Shown here one piece after another: positions 950 to 32,770 of a stretch of DNA of 64,000 nucleotides; position 1 is the stretch's first letter; the number at the start of each line of letters is the position of its first letter. The position numbers and the translations under genes are program-made. The notes under the pieces were generated by a model. That model was not told where the DNA came from, searched no databases, and saw only the letters and a program-made list of their open reading frames with translations. The DNA lies in the NCBI GenBank assembly GCA_963920765.1, contig OY987242.1:31582002-31646001 (forward strand), in the 5' to 3' direction. This stretch comes from Ulota crispa (lineage: Eukaryota > Streptophyta > Bryopsida > Orthotrichales > Orthotrichaceae).

Positions 950-1596
950 TTAACCCCGCAAAGGGACCAAAACTGTCCACCTTGCATTTCAATCTGGAAA
1001 TTTTTTACTTTTTTGAAGATTAATTTTAGTGGTTATTTTTTTAAATTATTTTTATTGAAGTCTTTTTTTAGTATCAAAAATCTAATTTTGAAAATGAATG
1101 ATTATGATTTGTCTATCCAAGATTTGATGCAAGGGTGTCCATTGCAAATCTTCATTTTCTAGTGTTAAGAGCTCTTGGAAATGAGCCTCAAGTACACTAG
1201 AACTTGGAGAAACAATCACATTAGAAACTTAATTTAAAAAATTGTAGAGTAGATTTTAAGAAGCCATAAATTGATTAGGGTTACACATGTTGTACTTTAC
1301 ATATTCACATCTTTTTTGATATCCTCAATTTTAAAGTTGAGACGTGAAAAGAGGATTGAAAGACTTCAAATCACTTTTAGAGTTTTACCACCCACATGAT
1401 CAAATCTTATAATCTTTCAATCCATAAGTGATATTGTTGTGTTTTCTTTTAATATGTGATCTCTAACATATCTAGTTTGAATTTTTACGATTAGAATTTT
1501 TTTTAAATGATGCAACTTATCAACATGTTGCCATTTAGTTCATCCAACATCAGATTCTCATATACTTGGGAACGTCCGTGGGCGGTGAGGGGTTAA
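950..1596 (+). mobile_element. TTAA element B1 (~650 bp MITE)
   Basis: It is bounded by TTAA at 950-953 and 1593-1596. The right TIR reads inward TTAACCCCTCACCGCCC; the left TIR (TTAACCCCGCAAAGGGACC) has drifted. The interior matches the copies at 8693, 10745 (inverted), 26541 and 32110, including a shared stretch around 1130-1210 (gtgtccattgcaaatctt). The interior is not palindromic and is non-coding. The right TTAA is shared with the adjoining element D1. Confidence 0.8.
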
Positions 1597-3721: not shown

Positions 3722-3761
<40 letters not shown>

Positions 3762-5163: not shown

Positions 5164-5385
5164 CCCTTAAAGGACCATAGGGCATAGTATATAGACTGCC
5201 GTATAATTGGCATTTGCTACCAAAAAGAAGTTTTAATTTGGAATCTCCAGTAGCTCACTAGAACGGCTTTGATCTATTCTTTGACTTCTTTGTTGATCTC
5301 AATTGTAGTAAAGGTGTGAATTTGGTATAAATAAAAGAAAAACACCTCATATTATACTAGTCGCACCGGCACGCTATGTCCTTTA
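5160..5385 (+). mobile_element. TTAA element C1 (~226 bp MITE)
   Basis: Begins TTAACCCTTAAAGGACCATA and ends at about 5385 (tatgtccttta) where element A2 starts. Interior (cataattggcatttgctacc, then aatttggaatctcca) matches copies at 30932 and 32962. Too short to code. Confidence 0.7.
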
Positions 5386-6106
5386 CCCCTAAAGGACCAA
5401 GCCCCCTCTTGGGGGACAAATGGGATTTTGGGCATGTACCTATGGCTAAACTACTTTGTGTAATATTTTGAAAATTTTATGAATGATGGGGAATTCAAAG
5501 AGTTTAGTGGGCATCTAATTTTTTCTTCATTTTGACATTTATTGAAGAAGTTTAAAATGAACTTCTAGAAAACGGGCAAGATTGGGCAGCCCAAAAACTT
5601 TTTTAAAAATTGCATTTCAAAAAAATCAAAATATGAAATAGATTCTTTAGACTTTTATAGACTTGGGGAGCTTTGAATCATTCAATTTTGACTGATGAGA
5701 TGAAAATTATGAGAAGATTTTGTTTGCAGGTAGGTATGGTTTTGAGAAAAACCACACCTACCTACATACAAAAACTTCTCATAACTTTCATCTCATCAAT
5801 CAAAATTGAATGATTCAAAACTCCCTATGTATATATAAGTCTAAAGAACCTATTCCATATTTTTATTTTTTTTAAATGCAATTTAAAAAAAAGATTTGGG
5901 TTGCCTAATCTTGCCCATTTTTGAAAATTCATTTTAAACTTCTTCAATAAATGTCAGAATGAAGAAATAATTAGGCGCCCACATAAATATTTGAATTCCA
6001 CACTTTCAATAAAAAATTCAAAAAATCACAAAAAATAAATTAGCTGTAAGTACATGCCCAAAATCCATTTGTCCCCCAAGGGGACAGTTGGTCCTTTAGG
6101 GGTTAA
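5382..6106. mobile_element. TTAA element A2, palindromic foldback MITE
   Basis: A nearly complete ~720 bp palindrome centred near 5745, with ends cccctaaaggaccaag and ttggtcctttaggggttaa. Subterminal hairpins are CCCCC-TCTT-GGGGG (left) and CCCC-AA-GGGG (right). Left boundary abuts C1 at a TTTA/TTAA site, making an E1-C1-A2 chain. Confidence 0.85.
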
Positions 6107-8692: not shown

Positions 8693-9339
8693 TTAACCCC
8701 TCACCGTCCAAGGGGCCCAATTTGGGCCCCTTTGAAATTTATATAGAGGTGTGGGAACTTTCTTCAAGATTTTTTTAGTGAATATTATTACTTTTAAATT
8801 CTTATTGAAGTCTAGTTTCAGCATCAGGAGTTTGATTTTGAAAATGCATTAAAGTAGTTTGTCTATTCAAAATTTTGTGCAAGGGTGTCCATTGCAAATC
8901 TTCACTTTCTAGTGTTGAAGGCTCTTAGAAATGAGCCTCTAGTACACTAGAACTTGGAGAAAAATCCACATTAAAAATTCAATTTAAAAAATTGTAAAAT
9001 AGATTTTGAGAAGCCGTAAATTGATTGGGATTATGCATGTTATACTTTACGTACTCATATTTTTTTGGTACCCTCAATTTTTGGTTTGAGATGTAAAAAG
9101 AGGATTGAAAGCACTCAAATCACTTTTGCAGTTTTAACACCCTCATGATCAAACATTATAATCTTTCAATCCATAAATGATATTGTTGTGATTTCTTTTC
9201 CTATGTGATTTACAACATGTCTACTTTGAATTTGTACGGTTGTGCTTCAAAGAAAATCAATAAGATTGACCAAAATACTGGCATTTTGTTCACTTTCAAG
9301 TGAATTTTGAGATAAGTACCGTGGGTGGTGAGGGGTTAA
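8693..9339 (+). mobile_element. TTAA element B2
   Basis: TIRs are TTAACCCCTCACC at both ends. Just inside the left TIR, at 8710-8732, is a perfect hairpin with 10-bp arms AAGGGGCCCA/TGGGCCCCTT and an ATT loop. Interior aligns with B1 and the other B copies. Non-coding. Confidence 0.85.
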
Positions 9340-10744
9340 GCTTATGTGTGGTGGGGAACTATAATTGGTTGTTTGCATAAATTTGTGTGTGGTGTGGAAC
9401 TAATTGGTTGTCTGCTTCAACTTCATGTTCTTTGCTGCGTTTTCTCATTCAAAAGTGTTTTTTTGTAATTTAGATGCTTGTAAGGGCCAAAGTCTTTTAT
9501 AAACCCATTGTATACACATAATTTTTTCTTATGATACTTTTGTGTTTGTAAAAAAAATAGGGTTTGAAAAATTAGGTCATATAACCATTTAGAAATAAGC
9601 ATAGGGTACCCTAAAACACACTAAAGTAGCTTTTTATCTAAAGAAAAGGAGGAAAAATTTACCTTAAAATATCTAAATACCCCCCATTTAATTACCCCAT
9701 TATCGCATGTCGTATTCAATTGTAAAAGGGTGTGACCCCCTCGAGATCTAATGTCATCCTTGCTAAATGTCAAAAAATTCACCAATAAACTTTTTGATTG
9801 ATCCTTCCAAAGCAATCTACATCATACATTCCTAATGTGATATTGTGGTGGGCAATTTTGACGATTGAGGCCTCCTTTACACTAGAGGTGAGAATTCATG
9901 GAGAGCAAAATTTCAGCCAATGAAAACTACAGACTTTGAGAAGACTAAGTTATGTCACTTCACACTAGAATTTTTTTCCAAAGGACAAGAAAAAGAAAAA
10001 ATAAGGTGGATAATACTTTTGTCCTTCATGACAAAATGAAAGTGCAGAATTTTTGGGTCCCCAGAATAATAGTCAAGCTCTCCTAAAGAAGTGGGTCTAA
10101 CTATAATCCTAGGGACCATTTGGCCAAAATCCTTACACCCAATCATTTTTGTTTTTTTAATATTTTTTAAAGAAAATATGCTAAAAAGATAGATTATAAT
10201 TTTATGACCCCTTCTCACTTTACCTACAACTGAAGGCTAGTACCTTCAAAGGCCCACTTTTCAAGGACAAGCCATGGCCCATGAGGGATTTTATTCACGA
10301 TTCTTACCTCTTGTAAGGTAGAAATACCATAAATAGTTAAAATAAGCCACTTTAGCTTGTAAGGTATGGGGAATTTCTTGAGAAATTAAGCTCAATCTGT
10401 GGAGAAACAAGGATAAGGAAGAGTACAAAAAAATTACTCAAGAATGAATATTTCATGCAATATAAATGCAGATTTAGGGTTTGGATCAATTTTGGTTTCA
10501 TAGGTGTACCTTAAACGGCTACCTCTAGAACCTTGATCTGAAACAACTTTGAACCAATTAAATTCAAGGAAATAGCATCTTTCTAAAATCTTTTTCAAAG
10601 CTAGCTCTTTCTGGTTTTAGAACAATCTATGCTGCCATATTGGGGAGTAACCGCTTATGGTATTTCTTCCTTATAGAGAGGGCCTGAGTTTGATACGGTT
10701 TCACACAAGAGAAAACTTTTGCATAGAGAATTTGCTCCTACATT
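9340..10744. other. Intergenic, nothing recognised
   Basis: A short imperfect duplication lies at about 9340-9420 (gtgtggtggggaact / gtgtggtgtggaact). Otherwise AT-rich sequence without a gene, RNA or transposon end I can support. Confidence 0.5.
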
Positions 10745-11397
10745 TTAACCCCTAAATGCCCAAGGCCTTTTTGGGCTTTTCAGAGTTTTCATGAAACAAG
10801 ACAATCAACCAACCTTTTCATAAATCTCATCAACTTTTTTTAAATTGTAACCATACTAATTTAAACTAGATAAGTTAGAGATTGCATGGAAAAAGAAAAC
10901 ACAACAATATCACTTATAGTTTGAAAGATTATAATGTTTGAACATGAGGGTGTTAAAACTGCAAAAGTGACTTGAAGTCTTCCAATCCTCATTTCACATG
11001 TCATATCTGAAAAGTTGGTCACCAAAAAAATATGAGCTTCAAGGTCATTATATGTTTAAGCTCAATCAATTTACGGGATTCAAAATCGACTCCTACCTTT
11101 TTTTTAAATGAATTTCTAATGTGGATTTTCCTCCAAGCTCTAGTGTATTTGAGGCTCATTTTCAAGATTTCACAACACTAGAAAACTCAAGATTATAGTG
11201 GACACCCTTGTACAAAATCTTGAGGAGAAAAATCATCAACATTCATTTTCAAAATCAGATTTTTGATGTTGAAAATAGACTTCAAAACAAACTTGTATTT
11301 GAAAAAAATTACCAAAAATAACGTTTTAATAAAATTTTATTCATCTTCAAAGTTTTGTAAACACCCAAATTGGGTGCCTTGGGCATTTAGGTGTTAA
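10745..11397 (-). mobile_element. TTAA element B3 (inverted)
   Basis: TIRs are TTAACCCCTAAATGCCCAAG and, from the other end, TTAACACCTAAATGCCCAAG. They match each other over 20 bases but differ from the TIRs of B2 and B4. Interior is the B family in reverse. The B 'left' hairpin is at 11362-11376, arms CACCCAA/TTGGGTG. Confidence 0.85.
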
Positions 11398-11745
11398 AAT
11401 TGCCAGCACTTCCAAACATCCACAACCATACTTGTTCACATACCAGCCATACTTTTTACCAATTCCAGAGCGATTGTCAATAAAGTTGATTTTCTGAAGA
11501 AACAGTAAGCCTTTGTTGTCCTTTGTTGTCCTTTGTTGTCTTGAACTAATTGGGGATAATTTGGAGGGACATTGTCACATTGGTCCAAATTTGTCAAAAT
11601 TCGCTATATTTTGCTGACAAATTAGTGTTGTTTGTCAACCGTAAATGAAACCAATTAATTAATATCCTCTTTGATGAAAACTAAAAAAGCCTCAAATTTT
11701 TCTCTACTTGGATATGAGGAGACTAGCACCTCCACTAATTTCTTA
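11398..11745. repeat. 10-bp tandem repeat in non-coding DNA
   Basis: The unit ctttgttgtc is repeated three times at about 11513-11541. Nothing else recognised. Confidence 0.6.
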
Positions 11746-12754
11746 GAGCATCTCTTGCAATCCGTCAAATGTCCATGCTCCGATGAAATCCGGATGAAAA
11801 GTAACCAATTTTAGTTGTGTTGAACTTTACATTTACCTTCTCCTTCACATAAGTTATATTTGAAGTGGGCCTCTAAACTCTTTACAAGCTATATTTTATG
11901 ATGATCATAACTTAATTTATTGCTTTTCAAAGTTCTTTGACTTGTGCTTAGTTGGTATTATACTTTGTGGGTTGCACTGTAGGGGATACAAGTGGCCGTT
12001 CCCTCTAAAACGGATAAAGAGGAATTAGAGGGACCTAGACTTTTGGAGGGTTGTAGGCAGATTTTAAATTTTTGGCAACAAGAGACACAAGAGAACTAAG
12101 GATATGTTTGATATTTCAAATAACACAAGGATACATTTAATATTTAAAAATGATGAAGGGCCATTTTTGATATTCTTCCAAAAGACTAGGATAATTGATG
12201 TTCCTACATAAAGCGAGGAGTGTTTTTGATATTTGTACACAAACCAAGGATATTTTTGATTTTTCAAATCTTTGAGGGTTATGTATGATATTTCTGAAGA
12301 ATTGATGGGTATTTTGATATTCTCTTTAGATTTTTCACTTAGAAAGAAATGAAGTTGTGTATTTCCTCTCTCTTAAGTGGTCCTTCTTGTACCTTAAGTA
12401 ACTCACCCCTGGAGCCAAACAATATGGGACAAACCCCCCACTCTTCCTTACAAGTGATTTTTTGAATTGAACAGGCTTAGTGTACTACACAAGATGCAAG
12501 ATGCAAGAGACATGATGCAAGATGCAGAAGACATGATGCAAGATGCAGAAGACATGATGCAAGATGTGGAATGCATGACAGAATGGACAAACCAGGTGAC
12601 GGAGTCGCGACCGGGTACATAACTTGCCATGTGTGCCACATCGGCTAGGCCCACTTTTGTGGGCACAATATAACGTTGTGCCTGGCATGGTGAGATGCGT
12701 GTTGCTTTACTAGGGAAAAACCAAAAATTTAGCCGCTGGTTGTAGGAGATGCTC
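11746..12754. mobile_element. Harbinger-like MITE (~1 kb)
   Basis: TIR GAGCATCTCTTGCAA on the left and the inverse of GAGCATCTCCTACAACC on the right, flanked by TTA at 11743-11745 and 12755-12757. A 3-bp TTA duplication with GAGCATCTCC-like ends fits the PIF/Harbinger (Tourist) type. Non-coding. It carries an internal tandem array of a 20-24 bp unit (catgatgcaagatgcagaag) at about 12484-12575. Confidence 0.75.
12484..12575. repeat. Short tandem array (gatgcaagatgcagaagacat)
   Basis: Three to four imperfect repeats of a ~21-bp unit built on gatgcaagatgcagaag. They lie inside the Harbinger-like MITE and generate Ser/Cys/Ile/Met-rich open frames with no biological meaning. Confidence 0.75.
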
Positions 12755-13051
12755 TTACAAGCCCTGGTTGATTTCCGATCCTATTAAAATTTCCCAAAAT
12801 TTTCAAAAAATTTACCTTCATTTTGAATTTCCAACCAGTTCTTTGGCCAATTCCAACGATTCGTTCTGTCTTATTTGCCAAGTCTCCCCAATCATTATAA
12901 GAGAATTCTGCCAACCTAAGGTATCATGGGGGTCTAGTGGAGCCCATAATGTGAGTCACCACCTTGTTGTCGTTGACAAGTAATTCGGTTTTATTCTAAA
13001 GCAAGGCTGTACACTCAGACCTCTTCAACCCATCCACTTTTTTTTTTTTTA

Positions 13052-13525
13052 AGGGAAAATGTGATAAATGCATTTTTGATGGATACCCTTGATTTTTTTG
13101 AAAGTGCAAGAATATCCTTGAAAATGTTGGGGTTGCAAGGAACTTTGGGAATGACATGCTTTGACAGTCACATCCTTGACCATAGTGTAGTATTTTAATT
13201 TTAATTGTTTTTGTTTTGTCATTAGACAGTGTAAGCATGTGCTCATTATGTTGTCAAAATTGTGTTTTTTTGTATATACATGCTTTAAGTATTATTTGTT
13301 TTGTGCAAAATAGTGGAAACAAAGCAATTTGTGGAGCAACATCACATAGTGACATGGACACACAAACAACTTGTTTTGTGACAAATTGGAGTGATGTATT
13401 GATAATTATCCCCTCTCCAAAAACTCTATTAGGATGTTCTTGTAATTTCCAAGAAAATCGAGGATATACATCAAAAATCTGCAAAAAATCGCAATATACA
13501 AGGACATTTATTAGTTTTCTCTTTT
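13052..13525. mobile_element. Possible decayed Mutator-like MITE
   Basis: Begins gggaaaatgtgataaatg and contains the 'gatggatacccttga ... aatatccttg' pattern seen at 13660 and 54970. The right side (ggacatttattagttttctc) is only weakly inverted to the left. No target duplication identified. Confidence 0.35.
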
Positions 13526-13659
13526 GAAGTTTTGGTTATTTTTATAGGCAAAGATTTTACCTCATTTTAACACTGGCAACTTCATCAATAAGAATTTTTT
13601 TTTTTAAAAAAACGGGTGAAATACTGGGTAAAATTGCCACTCCTCTCATGCAAAAACAA

Positions 13660-13993
13660 GGGAAAATTTTATGGTCACCCTTGCAGTTTGCCATATTTGT
13701 ATGAATATCCCTAGTTTTTGGGAAATTGCACGGATATCCTTGGACCCAAAGTTTCAAGAATTTGTTTTGTTATGCATGCTTCTTCCTTTATGACAAATGT
13801 TAAAGCAAGGAGTGCCACAAAATGGAAAAGAAGCCGCATATGCATAAGTGAAAAAAAAAAAAAAAAAAAAAAAAAAACGCATGTAGAACAAATGCCTGAA
13901 AATTATGATCCAAGAATATTTGTGTAATTTTTGAAAAACTAGAAATATCTATACAATTATGACAAAATTCAGGGGTATCCATAAAATATTCCC
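13660..13993. mobile_element. Mutator-like MITE
   Basis: TIRs gggaaaattttatggtcacc and (inverted) gggaatattttatggatacc. Flanking 9-mers caaaaacaa (13651-13659) and aagaaacaa (13994-14002) match at 7 of 9, consistent with an old 9-bp duplication. A poly-A run at 13850-13877 lies inside. The same left end occurs at 54974. Confidence 0.6.
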
Positions 13994-14873
13994 AAGAAAC
14001 AATAGGTTTACCACGCTGCAGATGATGATTACTTATGATAACTGACCTTATGGATGAACGTACACACATGGATGTCTATAATTTCCTTTTCTTTTAATCC
14101 AGAACATTATATGGGCAATTGTTTCTTTACCACTGAAAAACTAGAAAATAAAAAATTCTTGTTACCCAAGACAATATCGCTTAACTGCTTTGCAAGTTTT
14201 TTCTTAAGGTAGCCGCACCCATAGAGTGAAAATAAGGGTTTTGGAGTAGGTAAACAATTGACTAACTTTGAGAAAAATACTATAAGTTAGCAAGAGAAAA
14301 ATAAAAATATTGGCAGTAATTTCATGGTTCTTACCACAAGTATTTGTTCACAAAAAGATTTCAAAGTCCAAAATCATTGAAAATGTAAAGTCGTGTGTAG
14401 GAGATGCTAAAAACAAGGTTTTTTGGTTCTTAAATAGTGAGATGGGGTACTTAAAACTATCATGCCAGTCACCCAAAACCACCATTTTGTCACCCATAAC
14501 CATCACTTTGTCATCCATATACATCACTTAGATACTCATAATATAAGGTTTTTAATATTTGTCAATTTTGATAGTGTGATAGAGGCATAGGTCACAGTCA
14601 TGGAGACCCTCACTAGGATAGGTGCAACTACCTCAAGTGCTAATTCCTTAAGATATCTACATTGTATTTCAAGAAATATTCATACATGCTACCCAAACTA
14701 GTATATCATTTGATGTTCAAAATTTATTATTTTAGTCATTTATTATACTCAAAAGGCAATTTTCTATTAGCACAAGAGTTGAATAGTGAGATGTTTGCCT
14801 TCACACTAATCTAGGTGATTCTTGTGTGATAAGTGTGAAGGGATGGCATGCCTCTCACCTTCTATTCCTATTA
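13994..14873. other. Intergenic, nothing recognised
   Basis: AT-rich sequence without a supported gene or element. A run of related phrases (cacccataaccatcac) at 14468-14528 is a weak local repeat. Confidence 0.5.
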
Positions 14874-15292
14874 GGGCATCCCCAATGCAGCTGTAAAAGA
14901 GGTAGGCAAAAGCTTGTGCAGCGCTTTAAACCGGACTTGAGCAAAAACATGGGCTTCAATGCAGCAGGTAAACCATACTGCATTTTTCAGGGCTCCCCAC
15001 ATAAGAGCCCCTCCCCTGCAAATTTTCACTATTTGGAGAGTCTTGCATATCACTCTAGCTCTGACACTGACGCAATTTCAAGGAATTTCATATACTTCTG
15101 ACATGAATCAGCCACACATAAGCATTTTAAAAAAACATAAATTATTACAAACTCATGTTTAGTGAGTGTCAGAGCTTGTGTGCATTGGGGACTGCTTAAC
15201 TTGAAAATGCCCCTACTCTGCACCACAGCCGGTGTCAGCCACTGGCTGACCCAATTTGCCCAGCTCGTTTTCCAGTTGTGTTGGGGATGCCT
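14874..15292. mobile_element. Harbinger-like MITE (~420 bp)
   Basis: Left TIR GGGCATCCCCAATGC, right TIR inverse of AGGCATCCCCAACAC, with TTA on both sides (14871-14873 and 15293-15295). Non-coding; the open frames crossing it are not conserved proteins. Confidence 0.75.
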
Positions 15293-16569
15293 TTAGGATA
15301 GAACCTCTATAAACCAATATGGTTGGGACTCCAAGGTCCATAATAGTTTAAGCAGGTCATCAATTAATTTTGTAGAGGTGTAATTGGAGTAACCTTGAGT
15401 GTAGTGCCGGCTTGCCAAAGATAGCATCCAAGAACATGACTATTATTAATTGAAATGTTTTAGTCCATGATAGACATTTACTTCTCTGTGGCAGCATTAT
15501 TAGTTTTGTATTTTGATATTATAGGGCTCACATCGAGATCGAGATTAACAATAGATGTTAGATTAGAAGGGATATTAGTTTAGAAAATATTACTTTACAA
15601 AGATTTTATTGTAGGAGTTTTGGGCACAACCTTATTGCAACCTCTTGAGAAGCAACTTAGAGGCGCAACCTCCTCAATATGGCATCCTTCACGCATCATA
15701 TACAATGCATCCTCACAAAATATCTCCAATATTTTGGTCACTTGACTTTTTGAGTCACAAACTCAAGGTACGTGAGATAATATTGACATATAGTAGTCCA
15801 TAATATATTGAATCTACTTAAATTGTAAATTACTTCATTAATGCACCTTACAAATTCACTTGTTTCTTGAATGAGTGCAAGTTAGCATTATAAGCAAAAA
15901 GTGCAATAATTGAAATAACTTGTGTGATTTATATGTATATGAAAGGAAACTAATCTTCAATTGATTCAAAAAATTCATTGTTATCCGTAAAATGTTAAAT
16001 TTTGCAAATAATCAAATGGTGTATTTGTTTTACTATCTAAGAAGACTTTAGAAGACTTTATTAGTTTTCAAAATATAAATGTTATGTTAGAAATGTTTTT
16101 GTACAAACATGTCTCCAATGCTTGCTAAATTGCAGATATTAATGAGTTTCAATTCTTTACATGAGATTGTTTCAAACAAAACTTGAGGGGCACTAGCACA
16201 AAACTTCGAAATCATGAGAGAAACACTTTAAGGTGGATTATAGTTCTCAAAGCTATAGATTAGAGGATTTAGAGATTGCCTAGATATATGATAGAATAAT
16301 CAAAATGAACTTTGAGTCAAAACACATACTATAAGGTCTCTTTTATTCACCAATTTAGAAGAAAATTAGATACCTTAAAGTGGGTTTAAAAGAAAGACCC
16401 CTTGAGAAATAAAATACACATGGTGAATTCTTTGTAAACCATATTTTTCTAATACAATTAAAACAATCTTAATATTGTAACATTTCCTATATAGAAAATT
16501 GAGACATTGAACATGTCTCAATTTTTTTTAACTAAGTGATTTTGTACATATCATATTACAAGGTTCTTA
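15293..16569. other. Intergenic, nothing recognised
   Basis: AT-rich non-coding DNA. I found no splice-linked exons, RNA gene or element ends. Confidence 0.5.
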
Positions 16570-16705
16570 GGGCCTCCTTCCATGTGGAGCCGATATAGTG
16601 AAGCTCAACAATTATTAGTGAGATGTGAGGTCTGATTTTACTGGAGCTCCATCTCACCAATAATTGGTGAGCTTCACCGGTACTGGTTCCACATGGAGGA
16701 GGCCC
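16570..16705. mobile_element. Small palindromic Harbinger-like MITE (136 bp)
   Basis: An almost complete hairpin: GGGCCTCCTTCCATGTGG on the left, its inverse on the right, and inner arms around ccaataattggtgag. TTA flanks it on both sides (16567-16569, 16706-16708). Confidence 0.75.
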
Positions 16706-16833
16706 TTATTATATGCAACATCTTAAACAAAAAACATTGATCCAAAGCTGCAGCTTATGAATTGGTTCTTAAAAGCACCCTAAATGGATTTCTATATTTA
16801 GTATCTAAGCTGCACTTTTGATCTACAAGCTTA

Positions 16834-18243
16834 GAGCGTCTCTTGCAGCACATTAACCCCTAAAGGATCATGCAAAGTTTTCACCAAACTCTCCAAAACT
16901 GCCATTTTAGATAGTCAACCAAATTTGAAAATAAAAACATTTTTGTGCATAAGTGACCATAGGATCTTGTAGAAGAATAGTTTTAGAAGATGTGGAATTT
17001 TTTTAAACATTTCTACCATGTGGATTGGAAGATAGAATGGTTTGAATATTCAGAAATGTCTTGTGGAAAACCGGGCAACTACTATTCAGAAGGTGAAATT
17101 CCTAAGGAAAAAGGGCTGCGTAGGTGGTGCTTCTCAAGATTCCTCTTTTCACCTAAGTAAAGTACATCTGTACATGTCAAAAATGTTTCAAATCATTTGA
17201 AATTTTACAAAACATTAAAAAAAATTAGTAAGTAAACACAAGTAGAGAATAATTGAAAACACAAAATTGTTAAGAATTTTATTATGGAAATGAAAAATGC
17301 CAATCCCAATGGTTGTAATGTTGTGATAAACAATCTACATCCTTTGGTTTTGTTTTATATCCAAAATATTGAAAATTGAGTAAAATAAAGGACTTCAAAG
17401 TTTATTTTAGAGTAGAGAATCCACAACTGCCCTCAAACAAAAAATCCTCATAACTTTCATCTTGTTGATCAAAACAAAATGATTCAAAACTTCCTACATT
17501 CACATAAATCTCCTAAATCAATTTTAAAAACTTTTTTTTGAAAAAAAAAAAAAAAAAAAAAAAATTTGTCCAGGCTGCCCGCCAAGTGAAAAAAACAACA
17601 TATTAGGCCATAATATTTTACTCATAATTTCAAATGTCATGAAATTTAGTGCACATGAAAGAGAAACCTTGTTCCCAAATTTTGTTAAAATTTTAGCCTA
17701 AAATATGAAAAGCTCCAATCACAAGTACATGCCCAAAATTGCTATGTTGCTAAAAAAGGGGATTTGGTCCTTTAGGAGTTAAAACTGCCCTTTTTGTTCA
17801 ACCCGTAATGGCTTCTGCAATTCAAGTCTCCAACAACACTATACTTGTTGATGTGCAAGAGTGGGGCTTTTCAAGCTTGGGCCATTTTCATGTCAAATTG
17901 GAGCTTTCTCCAAGCCCCTTCACGGTCCCTGCCAAACACTATTCACGCACTATTCACTTTGCAATACCAAAGGTTGAATGCCATTTTCATGGTGTTTTGG
18001 GGTGCTACGGCAGTACCAAAAACTTTATTAATTTATAAAGAGATAGGAGGTGAAGTGTAATGGTAAGTTCCACTACCAGATGTGCAACACCAAAGGTACC
18101 CTTGCAATTTGTTGCAACGCATGTGCATGCCCTCAAACCTTCCGAACTACAAGGAAACTTCATGCTTTGTTGCATTACTTACTGCTCTTGTCCCCTCCAA
18201 ACCTTGTTTCTAGGCACTTCTTTAGACGTGCTGCAGGAGATGC
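16834..18243. mobile_element. Harbinger-like MITE interrupted by F3
   Basis: TIRs GAGCGTCTCTTGCAGCACA and inverse of GAGCATCTCCTGCAGCACG, with TTA on both sides (16831-16833, 18244-18246). The interior is split at 16853-17782 by TTAA element F3. The host part (17783-18243) aligns in reverse to the uninterrupted copy at 63450-63822, for example around the phrase cactattcacgcactattcac. Removing F3 leaves about 480 bp. Confidence 0.8.
16853..17782 (+). mobile_element. TTAA element F3 nested in Harbinger-like MITE
   Basis: Starts TTAACCCCTAAAGGATCATG and ends tttggtcctttaggagttaa. A poly-A tract lies at 17538-17563. The junctions are gcagcacaTTAA and TTAAaactgccc. The uninterrupted relative at 63.8 kb reads, inverted, gcagcacgTCAAaacagc. 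So the insertion added one extra TTAA and removed nothing. Confidence 0.85.
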
Positions 18244-18753
18244 TCTTACAGGCGTGTTATTCTTTTGGAAAATGTTTACTACCGGGGGATATTAATGTTA
18301 AATTCAGGGCAAATTGCAAGTTTCTGAAAAAAAATACAATACAAATATAGAGATAACTAGTATTAATGAGGGATTACTAAATCACTTTCTTTGCGAACAT
18401 CAGTGTAACAACAATCGTCACTTTGTTTTTGAAATTTATTGTATACAATAATGTTTCCACTTGCATTAATTTAAATGCAGTATAGAATATAGATGGTGTA
18501 AATTTTGTAAATTAGTGTCACAATAACTTAAAAAGCTGATCTGTGTAAAGGATAATTTAATCTTTCAAGTTTGTAAATGCTGAACACGTTGTATATTTTT
18601 ATAATGTTCAAACTGTTTTTCTTTGTCCTCCTTATATTGCTTATATTGCTGTTTGACTTGAGAGGCAGTTCACACTTATGTCCTGTGTCTCAATTCTTCA
18701 TATCTTGGTTTAACTCCAAATTTGCACAGTTTTGGGTTGCGAAGGAGCAATAA

Positions 18754-18987
18754 GGGGCTGTTCACACTACGTCCCACTATCCCCTCTTTGTAAGTCCCAT
18801 CTCAACGTGAGATGGTGGGATTTGGGCTGAAAGTTGGAATTAACAAATTGGTTGAACTAAACCTTGAGTGAAGTCCCACCGTTATTGGCGCCAAAACTTT
18901 CAAAAAGTGTTGACATGTAAGCAAAATGTAACAAATTGGGAAGTGGAACTTGGGATGAGGAACATGAGACATAGTGTGAAGTGCCAA
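18754..18987. mobile_element. Possible MITE with GGGGCTGTTCACACTAC ends
   Basis: The left phrase ggggctgttcacactacgtc is mirrored by gacatagtgtgaagtgcc on the right. Related phrases at 18670 and 19440 suggest decayed relatives. No clear target duplication. Confidence 0.4.
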
Positions 18988-19521
18988 TTTAGTCTTGACT
19001 TCTAACCTCCCACTTCCTCGATCAGCTTCCACTAAGAATTCACTGCTAAGTAGAAGCAGCTGGTTTTCATCCCTTATGGGGTTTTCGGCTTTTTCCCCCT
19101 TTCAAGGGGTTTTTTCATGTATTCCGAATTCATTTTAACTATATGAACTCGACATCTCCGAACGAACCGGTTTTTTTCCCCATAGGGGTTTTCCTAAGTC
19201 TTGACTTCTAACTTTACACCAACTAGATTCTTAGATTGTAGTGGAACATGGAACATGGGACGAAGTTTGAACTACCCTTGAATAGAACAATGAATGAAAG
19301 TTTTGTTCAAGGAAACAGTTGGACCTGACTCTCAAGTTGGATTTTCATAATTACTATACTCAACTCTTAGAGCACAGTGCCACTTTCTTAAAGCCAAAAG
19401 AACTAAAAGGTGTCATTATATAGACATTTTTTTAAGTGAATTGGAGCTTGGGACATAGCGCAAAGTTATAAGACATGATTTTCACCCTTTTCAAAAATCC
19501 ATGGATCCTTGGGACTTGGAA
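18988..19521. other. Intergenic, nothing firm
   Basis: Contains a CCCC/GGGG-bearing stretch at 19075-19195 with two similar phrases (ccctttcaaggggttttttc and ccccataggggttttcc). I could not assign it to an element. Confidence 0.4.
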
Positions 19522-20180
19522 TTAACCCCTAAAGGCTTTTGACTATATTTTCATCAAAATTGCCCCAAAATTGTCATTTGTAGTGCAAGTATCAAATTTT
19601 AGATGAAAGTCATTTTTGGACACATCTAATTGTAAGATCTTGTAGTACACTAGTATCCAAAGATGTGGAAAAAAAATCAGAAATTCCTACCATGTGGATT
19701 GTTAGGTGATTGAGTTTGAATTGACAGAAAGTCGTTTTTTGTCCTTGCAAAAATCTGGGCAGCTGCACTTCACAAGGTCATATTTGTATGAAAAAGGTTT
19801 CAAATTGGTTGTAGTTTTTTGTATTCATTCTTCAACGCAAGTTAGGAACACACTTAAAAAATTCATATCATTTGGAAATGTATAACACATAGGAAAAAAA
19901 TAGTAAGTAAAAAAAAGTAGAGAATGATACAAAACACTAAATTATTAAGAATTTAATTATGAAAAACAAAAGTTCCAATACCAATAGTTGAAATGCTATA
20001 ATAAAAAATCTACATATTTTGGCTATATATTTTTTCCAAAATATAAAAAATTGAGTAAAACATAGGACTTAAGAGTTTTTTTTAGAGTAGGGAATCCATA
20101 ACTGCCCACAAACAAAGTCTCCTCATAACTTTCATCTCATTGATGAAAATTGAATGATTCAAAGTTTCCAAGGTGTCATA
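19522..20180 (+). mobile_element. TTAA element F4, truncated
   Basis: Starts TTAACCCCTAAAGGCTTTTG and follows the F interior to about 20175, where a (TA)n tract and a Helitron-like element begin. I do not see its right end downstream. Confidence 0.65.
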
Positions 20181-20183
20181 TAC

Positions 20184-20252
<69 letters not shown>
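20181..20252. repeat. (TA)n microsatellite
   Basis: About 70 bp of TA with a few CA interruptions, at the edge of the Helitron-like element. Confidence 0.95.
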
Positions 20253-20253
<1 letters not shown>

Positions 20254-21100
20254 TAGTGGACCTGTGCACCCTTCGGGCCCACTTCAAACACATAAGTTAA
20301 GGGTGAAGGCTTAATCATGATTTGTTTGTTGTTTATTTTAATTATTTATTCTAATTACGCTTATCATTTTGTTTATTTTAATTATTTCTTGCTTGCTTAA
20401 TCACGTCACGTTGTCGCTTATTTTAATGGTTTTTGTGACATGTGAGGCTAATTGTTATTTTAAGGGAATCGATATGTGCACACCGGGGGTTGATATTTGC
20501 ACATCCCTTGGAAGGTAAGTTGTAGATTTCTACCATCAAAAAGCTGAATTTGAGAATTTTGAATTTGAATGTGGAGTTAGAGACCATGGTATACTTTAGA
20601 ACCATTAAAAAAAGTTGCAATTAAACAACACTCGGTGAAAAAGCTTAGCTAAGGGAAAAAGTATTACTTTTATTTTTGTTTGTAAAAAAAGATAAGCTTT
20701 TTCATTGGGTGTTGTTCAATTGCAAACTTTTCTATGGTTCAAGAGTAAATTATGGTCTCTTAGTTCAAATTTGAATTCAAAAGTCTCAAATTCAAGTTTT
20801 TGATGGTAGAAATCTACAATTTACTTTCCAAGGGATGTGCAAATATCAACCCCCTGTGTGCACATATCAATTCCCTTTTTTAATCATTTTTTTAACGTGT
20901 GACAAGTGAGGCTTATTTTAATTGTTTTTTTAATATGTGACAGGTGAGATATCAATCCAAGAACTTTTTATGATTATTTTTATCAACCCCCCATGGCCCC
21001 ATGCATGCCCCCTGCATGGCCCATCTGCAATTTTATCATGCAACTCCCTCAAACTAATACATGTATAAAGACACCCTGTTCTATTATAGAAAGAAGAGAG
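20253..21100 (-). mobile_element. Helitron-like element Hel1
   Basis: Read on the minus strand, the element ends in CTAG next to a T, preceded 7 nt upstream by a hairpin (GTGGGCCC-GAA-GGGTGCAC, with one mismatch and a wobble). That is the Helitron 3' pattern. The 5' end (a TC near 21090-21100) is not precisely placed. A second copy with the same end lies at 22079. It contains a nested foldback (20464-20875) and no Rep/helicase gene. Confidence 0.6.
20464..20875. mobile_element. Mutator-like foldback nested in Hel1
   Basis: Nearly palindromic 412 bp; ends gggaatcgatatgtgcacac and inverse. The same element sits at the matching place in Hel2, so it predates the Hel1/Hel2 duplication. Its first bases (GGGAATTGATATRTG) also match the foldback in the chlorophyll synthase intron. 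Confidence 0.7.
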
Positions 21101-21102
21101 AG

Positions 21103-21181
<79 letters not shown>

Positions 21182-21205
21182 TATTTATATATATATACAT
21201 ATATT
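21101..21205. repeat. (TA)n/(TG) microsatellite
   Basis: Long alternating TA tract with few substitutions. Tyr/Ile repeat open frames on both strands here are artefacts of it. Confidence 0.95.
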
Positions 21206-22078
21206 ACTAATTTTGGTCATAATCACCCCAACACAAAAATCTCTATAAGAAAAATTTTGAAACTCTCTGGAAATTTTTGTTAGAAGGAAAGATGTGCACA
21301 TGGATGTTTCCTACATATCCATGCAATCAAATCTCAAAAGTTCATCACCAATGTGTTTTAATCAATTATCATATAAAACCATGAATTTCATTTATAACAA
21401 TTCACCAAAAATAGGATTTTGATTTTTTGGAACTCAAATTTGGTATACTTGATTAGGATTGTGTAGGAATTAAAGCTTAGTGATACAAGATACAAAAAGA
21501 CCAATTACACTCTATAAAATGACAAGTCCTTTTAATAGTAGAATGGGGTGGACATAAACTTATTCTACCCCACATCCATACCCGACTGTTTAAGGGTTTG
21601 GGGTACTGCAAGGTCCAGGAAAATTCAGCAAAAAAATCTATAGGATTAGCATTTTAATAATTTATCACGGAACATCATTTTTGTGGAAAAGGTATTATAG
21701 AATATTTTATATTAGAGGGCAAAGTCACAACTCATAAGGTCTCTAAAAGCAACTCTAAACTAATCTTGAAACTATTTGGATGTGTTCCTATACATATACT
21801 TGATGGTCTCAATCTCAGCCCTCCCAAACTAGCTCCTAAGCTAACATACGGCATGATTTGTTGGTGCTAGTAGTGTTTACTGCTCCACTTTGGGTTCACT
21901 CTAAGTGATGAACACCTCAAACCTAGCATAAATATAAGGGTCAGCTTTTGAGACCGGTTGGAGAAAGGTGTGTTTACCTTAATGTGCTTGGCAAGTATTG
22001 TTCCTCTAACTCCTTTATCCTTTATAGACCCATTGATATTTTACCATTTGATCAACCACTTTGTGTTTTATAATTATA
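21206..22078. other. Intergenic, nothing recognised
   Basis: AT-rich non-coding sequence without element ends or gene structure that I can support. Confidence 0.5.
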
Positions 22079-22229
22079 CTAGTGGACCCGTGCACCCTTT
22101 GAACGCACTTCAAACACATCAGTTAAGGGTGAAGGCTTTAATCATGATTCGTTTGTTGTTTATTTTAATCATTTATTCTAATCATGCTTCTCATTTTGTT
22201 TATTTTAATTGTTTCTTGCTTACTTAATC

Positions 22230-22405
22230 AAACTGGTAGAAAATTGCAATAGAATCCACCAAAAAATGTAAGGTAGGTTATGTTGAGTTCCATGTTTCTA
22301 ACGCAAAATTTTGTTGAACAATGCAAAACTTTGTGTTGGAAACATGGAACTCAACATAAACTACCTTACATTTTTGGTGGATTCTAACATAGTTTTCTTC
22401 ACGTG
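22230..22405. mobile_element. Hairpin MITE inserted in Hel2 only
   Basis: Two ~70-bp inverted arms (gttgagttccatgtttc ... gaaacatggaactcaac). Hel1 lacks it: there gcttaatcacgtcacg is continuous. The flanks aatca / atcac suggest a short duplication (3-4 bp). Confidence 0.65.
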
Positions 22406-22499
22406 ATCACGTCATATTGTCGCTTATTTTAATCTTTTTTTGCTTATTTTAATAGTTTTTGTGACAAGTGAGGCTAATCAAATTTTTATGGGAATTGAT

Positions 22500-22903
22500 A
22501 TGTGTACATTGGGGGTTGATATTTGCACACCCCCTTGGGGAGGTAAATTGTAGATTTCTACCATCAAAAAGTTGAATTTGAGAATTTTGAATTCAAATGT
22601 GGAGTTAGAGACCATGGTTTACTTTAGAACCATAAAAAAAGTTGCAATTAAACAATACTCGGTGAAAAAGCTTAGCTAAGGGAAAAATTGTTACTTTTAC
22701 TTTTGTTTGTAAAAAAAGATAAGCTTTTTCATTGGGTATTGTTCAATTGCAACTTTTTTCATGGTTCTAGACTAAATCATGGTCTTTAAGTCCAAATCTG
22801 AATTCAAAATTCTCAAATTCAGATTTTTGATGGTAGAAATCTACAATTTACCTCCGAAGGGGGTGTGCAAATATCAACTCCCAGTGTGCACAAAACAATT
22901 CCC
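22500..22903. mobile_element. Mutator-like foldback nested in Hel2
   Basis: Counterpart of 20464-20875: ends gggaattgatatgtgtacat and inverse, with palindromic arms around atttctaccatcaaaaagtt. Confidence 0.7.
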
Positions 22904-22974
22904 TTTTTTAATTGTTTTTTTAATGTGTGACAGGTGAGATATCAATCCAAGAACTTTCTGTGATTATTTTTATC

Positions 22975-23155
22975 GTCCCCCCATGGCCCCATGCATGCCC
23001 CAACCCATACATACATACGGGCGTTTTATCATGGAGCCCCCTCTTAATTTTTATCAACCTCCATGGCCCCATGCAGCCCCAACCCATACATACAAACGGA
23101 CATTTTATCATGGAGCCCCCTCTTAATTTTTATCAACCCCCATGGCCCATGTGCA
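22975..23155. repeat. ~76-bp tandem repeat in Hel2
   Basis: About 2.5 units, each containing catggccccatgca, cccatacatacaaacgg and ttttatcatggagccccctc. Absent as an array from Hel1. Confidence 0.75.
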
Positions 23156-23257
23156 AGGAAGGGCCTACAACCATGGATTTTCCATGGAATTGCAATCATC
23201 TTCTAGGAGTTATTTTGGCAATGCAATCAACATCAAAATTCAATATTATAATTTAGT

Positions 23258-24119
23258 AGAAGAAGCTATGTGCATACTACATGTATAAAAAAAGTCCATA
23301 AATTTTGGTGAAAATTTGAAATTATTGTAGTTTTTTGAAGCAAATGCTAAAGAAATTCATATAAATTACAAAATGTATTGAATTAAGTCAATTTTTTTAT
23401 CATGGATGTGAATCATGATGAAGATCATCATGATGGAGTTTCTTTTCCCGTGTTGGTAAAATTAGAAAAATAACCATTTTGTGGTAATAGGTATTCAACT
23501 TGTGACAGTAATAAAATTTTCAAAACTTAAATTTTTTCAAAATCTTAAAGTACAAGGAGAAACTAGATTTGGTAAAATTTCTATAGTTTGTTATGCTCAA
23601 ACTAAAAACACATCATTATAATAACTTAAATTGATTTTTGGTAAAAAGATCCTCAGAATTCAAAATACACTATACGGTGGTGCATCTTTACTACTCAATT
23701 GGCAAGTGGGACCCTTATGTGAACATTATGTATGCAAAAGCTAGCTATCTACATGCTCTAGAATTACACTATTCATATCCCAACAAAATCTTAGATGAAA
23801 AACAATGTTATTCCACTATGAGAGCACTTTCCAGTCATCCAAAAGCCACAAAATGGCTCCTGCAACGTTTAAGGGTTACCTAATACATACATACAAACAC
23901 CTTGTAGCTACCAAGTTTATGATAAAAAAAAAAGCTTGACATTTGTGGAGTCACACGTACCCAAGCTAGACGGACAGACAAACCATAAACCCCGTTCATA
24001 ATAAACTAACCTAGATCTATAGACATTCTTATCAACATAGGCCAAATTCTACGTGAAATGCATTTTCTTGCTAAAACCAAACAATATTCAAAACTTGCAT
24101 TAACATGTCCCAAGTGTTA
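23258..24119. other. Intergenic, nothing recognised
   Basis: An 81-codon open frame (23638-23883, +) has no recognisable domain and no supporting structure; I do not call it a gene. Confidence 0.5.
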
Positions 24120-25061
24120 TTAACTCCTAAAGGACCAAACCTTTTTTTCTATCAAAATCACTGAAAACTGCCACTTCTAGGGGATGAGTAAGAAGGTAGG
24201 GTTTTTCTTTTTCTTTTTTGGGAGATCCAACCATAGGATCTTGCTTTAGACTAGAAGAGATACTTGTGGGAAAAAAATTAGGTCATTCTAGATGGAGAGG
24301 AGGGAGATATTTACATTTGAAGTGAAAAGAAAGGTTTTTTTCCATATTGTCCAAGAAATTTAGAAGCCTTTGACCACTCTTACATGAAAAAATTTGCTCT
24401 ACACAAAGTTGAGGTTTATTTTTTCCATGTAGAAGACCAAGTTAAGCATGTGTGGGAGAATTTTCAAATCAGTTGAAACTATAAAACACATGGGAAAAAA
24501 ATAGTAAGTAAGAAGAAGTAAAGAATGAGTCAAATCACTAAGTTGTTAAGAATTTAATTATTGAAATGAAAAATGCAAATCCCAATGGTTGTAATGTTGT
24601 AATAAGCAATCTACTTCTTGAGGTTTAGTTTTTTTTCCAAAATATTGAAAATTGTGAAAAATAAAGGACTTCAAAGTTTATTTTAGAGTAGAGGATCCGG
24701 AATTGCCCACAAACTAAAACATCTCATAACTTTCATCTCATTGATTAAATAGGAATGATTCAAAGCTTCCCACATATAAAAAATCTAAAGAACCAATTTC
24801 AGATTTTAGTTTAAAAAAAATACAAATTTCAAAAAAGTTTTTGGGTTGCCTAGATTGCCCTCCCTCCCACGGGCAGTAGACATTATTGCATAACTTCTTT
24901 GTCAAATGTCAACATGAGGAAAAAATTAGATGCCCACATAGATTTTTGAATTCCTCATTTTCCATAAAAAGTTTTAGAAAATTACATATAGTAATTTAGC
25001 CATAGGTACATGCCCAAAGTCCCAATTATCCCCAAAGAGACAACAATCCTTTACTCGTTAA
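24120..25061 (+). mobile_element. TTAA element F5
   Basis: Starts TTAACTCCTAAAGGACCAAA and ends acaatcctttactcgttaa. Full-length F (942 bp), with the typical left segment (aaaactgccacttctagggg) and the A-like right arm. Non-coding. Confidence 0.8.
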
Positions 25062-25521
25062 AACGCTGGCTTTAAAAACAAATAAATAAATTGTTGATAG
25101 TTAGAGTGCATTTGGTCCTTTCATTATTTAAAATTTTAAAAAAAAACCCAATTATGACAATGTACATTCATGTGCAAAAGTAATGACCAACTTTTGTCTA
25201 TTAGTGAAATACTTTGCTACAAACGCCCTTGCAAAATAAAGAAAAATAAAAGGAGACCCTCTACTTATGGGTCCCTATTTGCATATTTAGAGATTGGTAA
25301 TCATCCCAACAAACATCCTTGTGATAATCCATCATTCTCAAAATCCAAAAAAGCAAAGCATTTTCTTTATTACATCTTGTTTATTGCATGACACATTGAT
25401 ATGTAGCGTCCCATCTTTCCATCAAATTGTCAATTAACTTCTACACAACGCAAACCAAGGAGAGAACCCCTTCAGAAATGTCACTCCCCCTATTCCACCA
25501 CAAGCTTCAAAGGATTGGCCG
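25062..25521. other. Intergenic, nothing recognised
   Basis: A 73-codon open frame (25170-25391, +) without recognisable features. No element ends. Confidence 0.5.
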
Positions 25522-26488
25522 TTAACCCTTTAAAAGACCATACACATTTTCCCAAAATTCACCAGAAACCGGGGCCCTAAAACTAGATGTGCATTTGAAT
25601 CAAATATGGACCCAATTTGAATAATCCAACCGTACAAATGTGAAGGACACTTTGTTTGTTGTAATGTATCAAAATTTCAGCTAGATTTACCGTTGGAGGT
25701 GAAATAACATAATGATTGAGTGAGCCATATATGGAAAATCTTTAGTTTTTCATGCTTGTGTGGTTTTGAATGTTAACGCTTCATGCAAGTTTTGGTTGAA
25801 AAGAGCCTTACATTTCTAGAAAGCAAGGTTTCCCACCTTTCCAACAAGACTAGTTTCACACAAAATAGACAAAAATAGCAATCACAAGGTGTAGCTAAGT
25901 GGACAAAAAGGGTCAAAAATCCCATTTTCTTTGCTACCCTAGGGCGGGTTGACAAAAAAGTTGGTAAATATTATGGAAAATCTGATTGGCAAAAACAATC
26001 AAAAATTGGCCTTAAGTTTAGGAATAAAAATTTTAAAGATGAAATGACAACACCATTTCAATAGATCTTCAAATACTACAATTATAATGCTACTCTATAG
26101 GTAAACAATACAAGCGTATTTCTTAAGCAATTTGATTTTTTTAGGATTGTGAAATTGAAATTTGACATTCTTCTTGCATATTTGATGTATTGTGTTATTG
26201 TTTTTATTCATCTTTGACAAAAAATGGATACATATTTTGAAGCCATGCCTTAATAAACACCATTATTTATCAACTTACATACCCAATTCCATTACTATTT
26301 TTTTAGATGGATGCAAAAATCTTATAATCACATGTGTTCTTCAAGATAAAATTCCAAATTACTAAGTGCTTTCAATCTATAAGCCAAAAAACACTCCCTA
26401 CGACCAAAATATGGTCGTGTGATCCTTTAAGGGTTATGATCCTTTAAGGGTTATGATCCTTTAAGGGTTATGATCCTTTAAGGGTTAA
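25522..26488 (-). mobile_element. TTAA element D2 (inverted copy of D1)
   Basis: Interior nearly identical to D1 over about 750 bp, so a recent duplicate. Ends differ from D1. The subterminal hairpin is ACGACCA/TGGTCGT (26400-26418) in place of D1's CCAAACCA/TGGTTTGG, with the same loop. Its right TIR is repeated four times (see 26421-26488). Confidence 0.85.
26421..26488. repeat. Four tandem copies of the 17-bp D2 terminus
   Basis: gatcctttaagggttat is repeated head to tail at 26421, 26438, 26455 and 26472. The last copy ends TTAA instead of TTAT. The unit is the terminal inverted repeat of the element itself. Confidence 0.95.
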
Positions 26489-26540
26489 GAAGAAAGATCA
26501 ACCAAGCCAAATCTACAATGCTATTCTTGTGTTTACAATG

Positions 26541-27196
26541 TTAACCCCAAAACGACATTGAGGACATAATGTGTCCTCAACCAATTTTTGAAGTTAAATA
26601 AAACCTTACCAAATCAAAATTTTTAGTAGTTTATTTATTTTTAATTTTCATTTAAAGTTTAGTTTTAGCTTTAACAATTTGATTTTGCAAATGATTGATC
26701 ATGATTTTTCTATTTGAGATTTTGTGCACAAGTGTCTATTGCAATCTTGACTTTATGTAGTGTTGAGGGCTCTTGGGAATGAACCTTAAATACATTAGAT
26801 CTTTGAGAAAAAAGCATATTAGAAATTCATATAAAAAACTTGTAGAGTAGATTTTGAGAAGTCATAAATTGATTGAGGTTATGCATGTTAGGCTCTTTAA
26901 CCTCGTGTTTTTTAGGTGATCAAAATTTTAAATATGCCATGTGAAAAGAAGATTAAAAATCTTCATATCACTTTCACAATTTTAACACCCTCGTGGTCAA
27001 ACATCATAACCTTTCAATCCATAAGAGATATAGTTTTGTGTTTTTTTTTCTAATGTGATCTCTAACATGTCTAGTTTGATTTTATATGGTTACAATTCAA
27101 AAACAACTGATACAATTTATCAAAAAATTGGCTTTTTGTTCAGATTAGAGTAAATTCGTAGAAGCTCTTGAAGTTCCAAGGTCGTTTTGGGGTTAA
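26541..27196 (+). mobile_element. TTAA element B4
   Basis: TIRs TTAACCCCAAAACGAC at both ends. The left hairpin at 26558-26580 has 9-bp arms TTGAGGACA/TGTCCTCAA and a TAATG loop. Interior is B type. Its TIR differs from those of B2 and B3. Confidence 0.85.
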
Positions 27197-28305
27197 TCTT
27201 CACTAAATTACATGCATTGTCTTCGAATATTTGTATGATAACGTGTCTTCAACATTCTTATTATTCTAATAAAGCAGACTTATTTTAAAAACGAACACTA
27301 GTGATCATAAGGTCCCACCCACCAAGTTCTAATACTCTAGCTTGGTGCCCCCAAGATGTGCAATTTTCAACACAATATGTTCTACATATGTGAAATTGAG
27401 GGATTCATTTATGAAATATATATTTTTGTTTATGGAATTGATATCCGTAACAAGGAACAAGGAGAACCAGCAGTTGAAATTGCAAAACACTTGGTTGAAA
27501 CCTAAAACTACTAGATAAGAATTGGTCCTTTTTTTCAAAAATCTAAATTTAGTCAATTACAATAGAAATTTAGAAGTTTTAGAGAAAATAATTGGTGCAT
27601 GTTAGTGAAAATCCAATTGAAATTGGGAAATGCAAAATTTTGGCGGGTGAAGCTAAAACTCCTCCCCAAACATTAATATGTATCACACCTTTTTTATTGT
27701 TTTATCACGCCTACTATATATCTATCTATACTACTAAGTGGGAGGATTTCACCTCCGTACCCTTTTTGAGAACCCTCTAGAATTTTTTGGTGTAAGTTGA
27801 AGCAATAAAGGACATCCTAAACATAAAACACCAAGCGCCCTTCAACCTTCTTTTCCAAAACCTTATAACCTTTTGGTGGAAGTTGAACAATAAGGATACT
27901 TTAAATATAGAACACCAAATGCCCTCCAATCATGTGCTAGAAAACTAACAAATTGCCAAGCACCCTCTAGCAATGTATTTAAGAGTAGCATTGTGATGAA
28001 GGCAACTACTATTTTTGGTTTCAAATAAGAACCAAAATGACAGCAAGATTAGGTTTTGAACCAATTGAGATATATTGATTTTTTGTAAAGAACATTAAGA
28101 TTATATTCGACCATTTGATTTGATTCTACAAATTTGAATGTTGCATTATCCTTACATGTCCAATTCATGCAAAGCGTGTGCTTGTATACTATGGCCAATA
28201 TTTGTGACATTGTACTTAGATGTGGTAGAATAGTAAAAAAGGTGTGGACTGGATATCAGTTCCATTTATTTATCATGAGTATTTTTTGCAGATATTGTAA
28301 AAAGT
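27197..28305. other. Intergenic, nothing firm
   Basis: The phrase tctatactactaagtggg at 27725 resembles a Helitron 5' end, but no matching 3' end was found. Two loosely similar stretches follow at 27780-27960. No gene supported. Confidence 0.45.
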
Positions 28306-32109: not shown

Positions 32110-32770
32110 TTAACTCAAAAATAACCCTAAGGACAGAATGTGTCCTCAACCAATTTTTGAAGTTAAATAAAACCTTTCTAATTTACTATTTGTAGTAATT
32201 AATATTTTTGAAAGATTCTTTTTCAAGTTTAGTTTTAGCTTCAACAATTTGATTTTGCAAATGATTGATCATGATTCTTCTATTCAAGATTTGTGCAGGG
32301 GTGTCTATTGCAATCTTGACTTTATGTAGTATTGAGGGCTCTTGGGAATGACCCTCAATTGCACTAGATCTATGAGAAAAAACCAAATTATAAACTCATT
32401 AAAAAAAACTGTAGAGTAGATTTTGAGAAGTCACAAAATGATTGAGGTTATGCATGTTAGGCCTTTTAACCTCATATTTCTTTGGTGACCAAAATTTTAA
32501 ATTTGTCATGTGAAAAGAAAGAAGATTAAAAAACTTCATATCACTTTCACAATTTTAACACCCTCATGGTCAAACATCATAACCTTTCAATCCATAAGAG
32601 ATATAGTTTTGTGTTTTTTTTTCTAATGTGATCTCTAACATGTCTAGTTTGATTTTATACGGTTACAATTCAAAAACAATTGATTCAACTTATCATAATG
32701 CAAGCTTTTTTGTTCAAATTATAGCAAATTACTAGCAGCTTAGGAAATTCCAAGGTTGTTTTGGGGTTAA
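32110..32770 (+). mobile_element. TTAA element B5
   Basis: Left end TTAACTCAAAAATAACC (decayed), right end inverse of TTAACCCCAAAACAACC. Hairpin AGGACA-GAATG-TGTCCT at 32130-32146. Closest to B4. Confidence 0.8.

Follow-up and report, generated by a model that had tools for sequence, protein, structure and literature searches.

Matched ends of short TTAA-associated elements in Ulota crispa are a property of subfamilies

A stretch of 64,000 nucleotides from Ulota crispa (GenBank assembly GCA_963920765.1, contig OY987242.1, positions 31,582,002–31,646,001, forward strand; hereafter the window) contains short transposable elements, of the type known as miniature inverted-repeat transposable elements (MITEs), in which the two ends of one copy agree with each other and differ from the ends of other copies of the same family. 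This raises the question of whether the ends are kept alike within each copy or whether their likeness is inherited. A first-pass annotation of the window had proposed either that one end is copied onto the other or that different transposase lineages select matched ends. Here, we compared the ends and interiors of copies fetched from the whole assembly (274.8 Mb, 157 contigs). The end match is a property of subfamilies, inherited, rather than of single copies. We consider it slightly better than an even bet (roughly 0.55) that the two ends of an element have to suit one and the same transposase lineage and that MITE lineages change the word by which they are recognized.

The following elements of the window are used below; positions in element ends are numbered from the first T of TTAA.

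B1, 950..1596, forward strand: B-family MITE with the TCACCG word; left word apparently privately altered; right end TTAACCCCTCACCGCCC
B2, 8693..9339, forward strand: B-family MITE with a TCACCG-type word, TTAACCCCTCACC at both ends
B3, 10745..11397, reverse strand: B-family MITE with the TAAATG word at both ends (TTAACCCCTAAATGCCCAAGG) and a single mismatch at position 6
B4, 26541..27196, forward strand: B-family MITE with the AAAACG word, TTAACCCCAAAACGAC at both ends
B5, 32110..32770, forward strand: the second B4-type copy of the window; left end decayed
C1, 5160..6113, forward strand: C-family MITE with the AAAGGAC word, split by A2 into 5160–5381 and approximately 6107–6113
C2, 30931..31175 (approximate ends), forward strand: C-family MITE with AAACGACCA at both ends; the right terminus merges into the next element
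C3, 32962..33195, forward strand: C-family MITE with TTAACTCTTAAACGT at both ends
A2, 5382..6106, forward strand: A-family MITE with the TAAAGG word at both ends, inserted in C1

The end strings that the first-pass annotation quoted for B2, B3, B4, C2, and C3 are all present, and the words differ between copies. It had placed all five elements within 8693..27196, which holds for the three B elements; C2 and C3 lie outside, at 30.9–33.2 kb. The two ends agree in these five (the ends of B3 read TTAACCCCTAAATGCCCAAG and TTAACACCTAAATGCCCAAG), with B1 and the D elements described below as exceptions. The ends of B1 are unlike (CCCCGCAAAGGG and CCCCTCACCG), and a TCACCG-type word stands at each end of all 10 fetched relatives, in some cases with 1–2 substitutions. 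The left end of B1 therefore looks privately altered, and the matched ends of these relatives rule out that B1 represents a natural mixed-end subfamily.

Judged by their sequence marks, the A, B, and C elements are non-autonomous piggyBac-type MITEs, because their TTAA sites, their CCC ends, and the presence of the piggyBac transposase domain (PF13843) in the same genome match the marks given for the piggyBac superfamily in PMC2872659, namely a TTAA target and short terminal repeats that start with a CC(C/T)T-like motif. Of the 116 copies retained in our end table, 102 have TTAA at each end; counted by ends, 218 of 232 carry TTAA and 204 of 232 the CCC that follows it. Inside TTAA, the left and right consensus coincide over 12 to 17 or more bases, apart from a single inner mismatch in two C groups, and the outer 8 bases common to the elements are TTAACCCC or TTAACCCT. 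A2 lies in a TTAA within the right terminal repeat of C1, which makes the TTAA duplication directly visible; one of its two copies now reads TTTA. The elements are approximately 234 or 640–666 bases long, and no open reading frame of 100 amino acids was found inside B2, B3, or B4.

A profile search with PF13843, in which 116 of 528 candidates were scored, gave at least 120 matches in the genome, all above the cut-off and many with stops, and none in 14 control genomes. The genome probably holds thousands of MITE copies, since a first look gave 3684–5149 candidates per query (the best 40 being scored for each). C left ends occur 1065 times at up to two mismatches.

The copies analyzed are not a random sample, because they are close matches to the window copies or were chosen by their left word. 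The B3 and B2 sets comprise 30 loci each, including the respective window element, and the B4 and B1 sets 20 and 10 of the 40 best matches. The C set consists of 10 loci from similarity matches, one of which (L095) holds two copies, and 20 loci picked by left word from about 100 listed places. The two copies at L095 lie head to tail with one TTAA in common and have different right-end modules. The end table omits 3 of 30 B3 and 1 of 30 B2 copies (an end missing or too unlike), the window elements B1, B5, C1, and C2, the flanking copies L054f, seven diverged C copies, and partial B copies in flanks. Further C loci were omitted for a decayed word (L093 and L094), a mixed word (L126), a right end beyond the stretch (L127 and L129), or a right end fused to another element (L128).

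Level of the left–right match

Left–right identity over positions 5–16 was 0.883 within copies, 0.890 between different copies of the same subfamily, and 0.691 between copies of different subfamilies of the same family. The check suggested by the first-pass annotation, whether the two ends of one copy resemble each other more than the ends of different copies do, thus comes out positive against other subfamilies and not against the same subfamily. Shuffling gave the same picture. For 90 B copies, the observed identity was 0.890, compared with 0.736 when right ends were shuffled family-wide, and for 26 C copies, it was 0.859 compared with 0.795; in both cases, none of 5000 shuffles was as high. 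When right ends were shuffled within subfamilies, the observed identity was reached in 2206 of 5000 shuffles. Because shuffling within subfamilies reaches the observed identity and family-wide shuffling never does, the match is placed at the subfamily level. The consensus words (positions 9–15) of the left and right ends are equal in all eight groups with at least five copies.

These results bear on the idea that the terminal repeats pair during transposition or repair, so that a mutation in one end is transferred to the other. Private end changes with the same base at the same position of both ends numbered 11, compared with 8.8 expected (ten groups), which is no clear excess; taken together with the shuffling within subfamilies, copy-level concert is not shown. 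B4 contributes the largest share of such pairs (five, compared with 2.6 expected), and this would favor copying, as would the both-end word differences within B4 and C that come with almost no net interior divergence (see below); for Galileo in Drosophila, too, terminal repeats have been proposed to undergo exchange and conversion with one another (PMC3573991).

Conversion of the whole terminal stem should, however, erase left–right differences that in fact persist. At position 8, C copies of the AAAGG type have T in 6/6 left ends and C in 6/6 right ends, and CGT-type copies with the right-end module of the AAAGG type have T in 6/7 left ends and C in 7/7 right ends. Position 8 thus stays unmatched, though the two types differ from each other at positions 13 and 15 of both ends. 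Position 17 of B4 is A in 12/19 left ends and C in 18/19 right ends, and position 19 is A on the left (9/10 in B1 and 26/29 in B2) and C or T on the right (10/10 and 27/29). These differences have survived amplification, and the proposal of end-to-end conversion in resident copies is not supported. Conversion may still have acted in rare founding events; overall, we regard it as an unlikely source of the match.

Words, interiors, and transposases

If the match is inherited by subfamilies, the words might simply mark old founder lineages, in which case founder effects and the ordinary constraint on terminal repeats would suffice. The absence of copy-level concert in both private changes and shuffling agrees with such a history, and so does much of the B family. 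In a tree of B interiors (99 copies, 97 of them different), the TCACCG-word copies form one clade (support 100/100) that encloses B1 and B2, the B4 copies form a separate clade (100/99), and the TAAATG copies fall outside both, with B3 joining far relatives weakly (94/42). The clades are taken from the tree itself; word-change counts based on automatic labels were left unused because these labels filed the decayed CpG word AAAATG with TAAATG and cut-off ends as mixed. Judged from their interiors, B1+B2, B3, and B4 are mostly separate, old groups, with net interior divergences among B1, B2, B3, and B4 of 0.11–0.21. The first-pass annotation had named old, interior-diverged subfamilies as the finding that would speak against its proposals, and this is largely what is seen among these three groups.

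It is not what is seen inside B4 and inside C, where words differ at both ends at a net interior divergence of 0.003–0.004. In B4, the interior distance between TAAAGG copies (three) and AAAACG copies (18) is 0.112, compared with 0.112 and 0.105 within the two sets, which leaves a net divergence of about 0.004. Grouping of the three TAAAGG copies as one clade is neither shown nor rejected (approximately unbiased test, p-AU 0.338), and one of them, L075, clusters with two AAAACG copies at 97/89. In C, the net divergence between CGT (12 copies) and CGA (10 copies) interiors is 0.003, and that between AAAGG (seven copies) and either of them is 0.033–0.039; the C interior tree has 154 columns and little resolution, the AAAGG type alone forming a supported clade.

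The AAAACG and TAAAGG forms of B4 and the CGT and CGA forms of C are thus nearly undiverged inside, which speaks against a plain subfamily history. Three further copies (L013f, L023f, and L041f) carry the B3 word, yet their interiors are nearer to B4 (net 0.052) than to B3 (0.112). Founder drift alone would also leave unexplained why the change is alike at both ends. We therefore judge founder history by itself to be improbable as the full explanation.

Words are not tied to one interior, since unlike interiors carry the same ones. B1 and B2 have a common word despite a net interior divergence of 0.11. The AAACGAC word is found on both B4 and C, and the A, E, F, and G elements in the window have TAAAGG ends, some of them decayed, as do C and part of B4.

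Mixed forms are uncommon. Both ends are known for 32 B4 elements (20 fetched, two from the window, and 10 further pairs; hand count). Position 9 is T at both ends in four, at one end in one, and at neither in 27 (Fisher p = 0.00014). Three of the 32 (L072, L087, and C2:29532780; hand count) are mixed, in the sense that their ends differ at position 9 or 13 beyond CG decay or one odd base. Of the 20 C copies picked by left word, 18 have a readable right end. That end matches or is one substitution off in 6/6 AAAGG copies, and with CG decay allowed, it matches in 6/7 CGT copies (L120 being unclear) and in 4/5 CGA copies; the fifth CGA copy, L126, is the single mixed form among the 18.

We infer from these sequences that the transposase reads the word and that the matching of the ends results from this. 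Positions 9–15 would act as a recognition word, and a transposase lineage would efficiently mobilize only those copies whose two ends both bear a word that it can read, so that copies with matching words would become the founders of large subfamilies. Now and then, a word would change, as a few substitutions arise at each end or as ends recombine, and the change would pass through uncommon mixed forms. Selection for matched ends of this kind would explain the subfamily-wide match, its restriction to the outer part of the ends, the words common to unlike interiors, and the small number of mixed copies. More tentatively, and at odds that we place somewhat short of even, the words may constitute an interchangeable seven-base code. 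They would be few and common to unlike MITE interiors, each would be read by its own piggyBac lineage, and they would change at both ends faster than interiors diverge and so record the transposase of each burst.

Several observations weigh against selection by transposase lineages. One-ended pattern searches for B4, which could detect only words of the form NAAANG, gave TAAAGG 12 times and AAAA(C/T)G 42 times among 63 left ends, together with the one-step words AAAAGG (5/63) and TAAACG (2/63), so intermediates did reach several copies; among 58 right ends, TAAAGG occurred 18 times and AAAA(C/T)G 36 times.

The proposed selection by transposase lineages fits the data, but only one pair of transposase loci was tied to a word, one similar to that of B1/B2. 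Loci L061 and L070 share 90% identity across 4 kb; at the downstream end, which is the end that was read, this similarity breaks off at TTAACCCTTCATTGCC, beyond the transposase domain, and in L066, TTAACCCTTCACCGCC occupies a comparable position. The terminal pattern of these loci, TTCA(T/C)(T/C)GCC, resembles the B1/B2 word, and the end word of L061/L070 does not equal it. Exact matches to this pattern number 51 genome-wide; only three of them, the source loci themselves, lie near a listed PF13843 match (by eye). For TAAATG, AAAACG, and TAAAGG as exact words, no partner transposase was identified. Of the stretches downstream of four further transposases, three contained a candidate end and the fourth (L132) did not. 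Going by these sequences, a link between word and transposase is indicated for one similar word at most.

The candidate ends near L063, L064, and C4:3591922 were not accepted as transposase ends and may belong to other repeats: the stretches L133 and L134 match other repeats, and L131 is single copy. At L043:1089–2330, a B2 element is inserted in a stretch that resembles the region downstream of the L063 transposase.

A new word might also be supplied to each end by a donor family through recombination that swaps terminal segments. In favor of such an exchange, the CGT word is found in the C family together with either of the two right-end modules that exist there. The TAAAGG B4 copies L073, L075, and L135, however, keep the bases typical of their own end just inside the word, so the exchanged tract would have to be very short; the one-ended pattern searches agree, though the patterns themselves required many of those bases. 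We consider end exchange very improbable.

Other features of the window

The two D elements fit the matched-word pattern poorly, the agreement between their left and right ends being poor in both:

D elements, 1594–2507 and 25521–26436: two copies of 0.9 kb, 96% identical

They are the closest long pair in the self-comparison of the window. Because their identity exceeds that of any other long pair there, the D element has probably been active recently. At the end of one D element (26420–26487), a 17-base unit, TGATCCTTTAAGGGTTA, which resembles a terminal-repeat end, is repeated four times in tandem.

At 7446–7725, the A3 element contains a long hairpin with 136-base arms that are 85% complementary and separated by 8 bases. 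Two copies of another hairpin-bearing repeat, starting with ACTAGTGGACC, lie at 20243–21011 and 22069–23001, one of them adjoining long AT repeats. Tandem repeats occur at 28302–28430 (23-base unit) and 12489–12572 (21-base unit), and the stretch 43659–46763 contains NB-ARC and leucine-rich-repeat reading frames of a disease-resistance-type plant gene. These frames agree with a land-plant source, as do 25 genome matches to NAM, a domain not known outside plants (28 candidates scored; none in 14 control genomes). Many of the NAM matches belong to one and the same gene, which leaves perhaps 13 NAM genes, a number suggestive of a non-seed plant.

Comparison with known systems

The elements described here make one genome a large natural data set on joint change of transposase specificity and terminal repeats, spanning several words and several interiors. 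They also illustrate that matched ends in single copies can mislead, since the match is inherited by subfamilies. Our literature search, judged by titles and abstract openings, gave no precedent closer than PMC2872659, and among the papers listed, we found no report of abundant piggyBac-type MITEs together with transposases for any land plant, although one may exist. Two papers were set aside as precedents: PMC10619864 contains merely the word “piggybacking,” and the main text of PMC12550479 mentions neither TTAA nor piggyBac.

In Galileo of Drosophila mojavensis, exchange of terminal repeats has been proposed as a source of new subfamilies, and there, as here, subfamilies of one element have closely similar repeats (reportedly 98% to 100% identity in Galileo; PMC3573991). 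Galileo differs in belonging to the P-element superfamily and in having very long terminal repeats, whereas the present ends match over 12 to 17 or more bases and the resident copies are without clear conversion. The likeness to the piggyBac superfamily lies in TTAA, in the CC(C/T)T-like start of the repeats (PMC2872659), and in the occurrence of PF13843 in the same genome. Unlike piggyBac transposons, the MITEs were not found to encode anything, and most of their words are without an assigned partner transposase.

The closest parallel is provided by the coral CMITEs, described by Wang et al. in 2010 as having a conserved interior, TTAA sites, and family-specific short terminal repeats; the authors suggest cross-mobilization by several piggyBac-like transposons (PMC2872659). 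The CMITEs resemble the present elements in their TTAA sites, piggyBac-type CCC ends, and conserved interior, and in having end repeats that match in families I–III. They differ in their length of about 100 bases, in their coral hosts, and in the less good match of families IV–VI. The present elements, of approximately 234 and 640–666 bases, come from a plant, and here words are common to unlike interiors and concert at the level of single copies was tested. By analogy, the Ulota crispa elements are a plant member of the CMITE kind.

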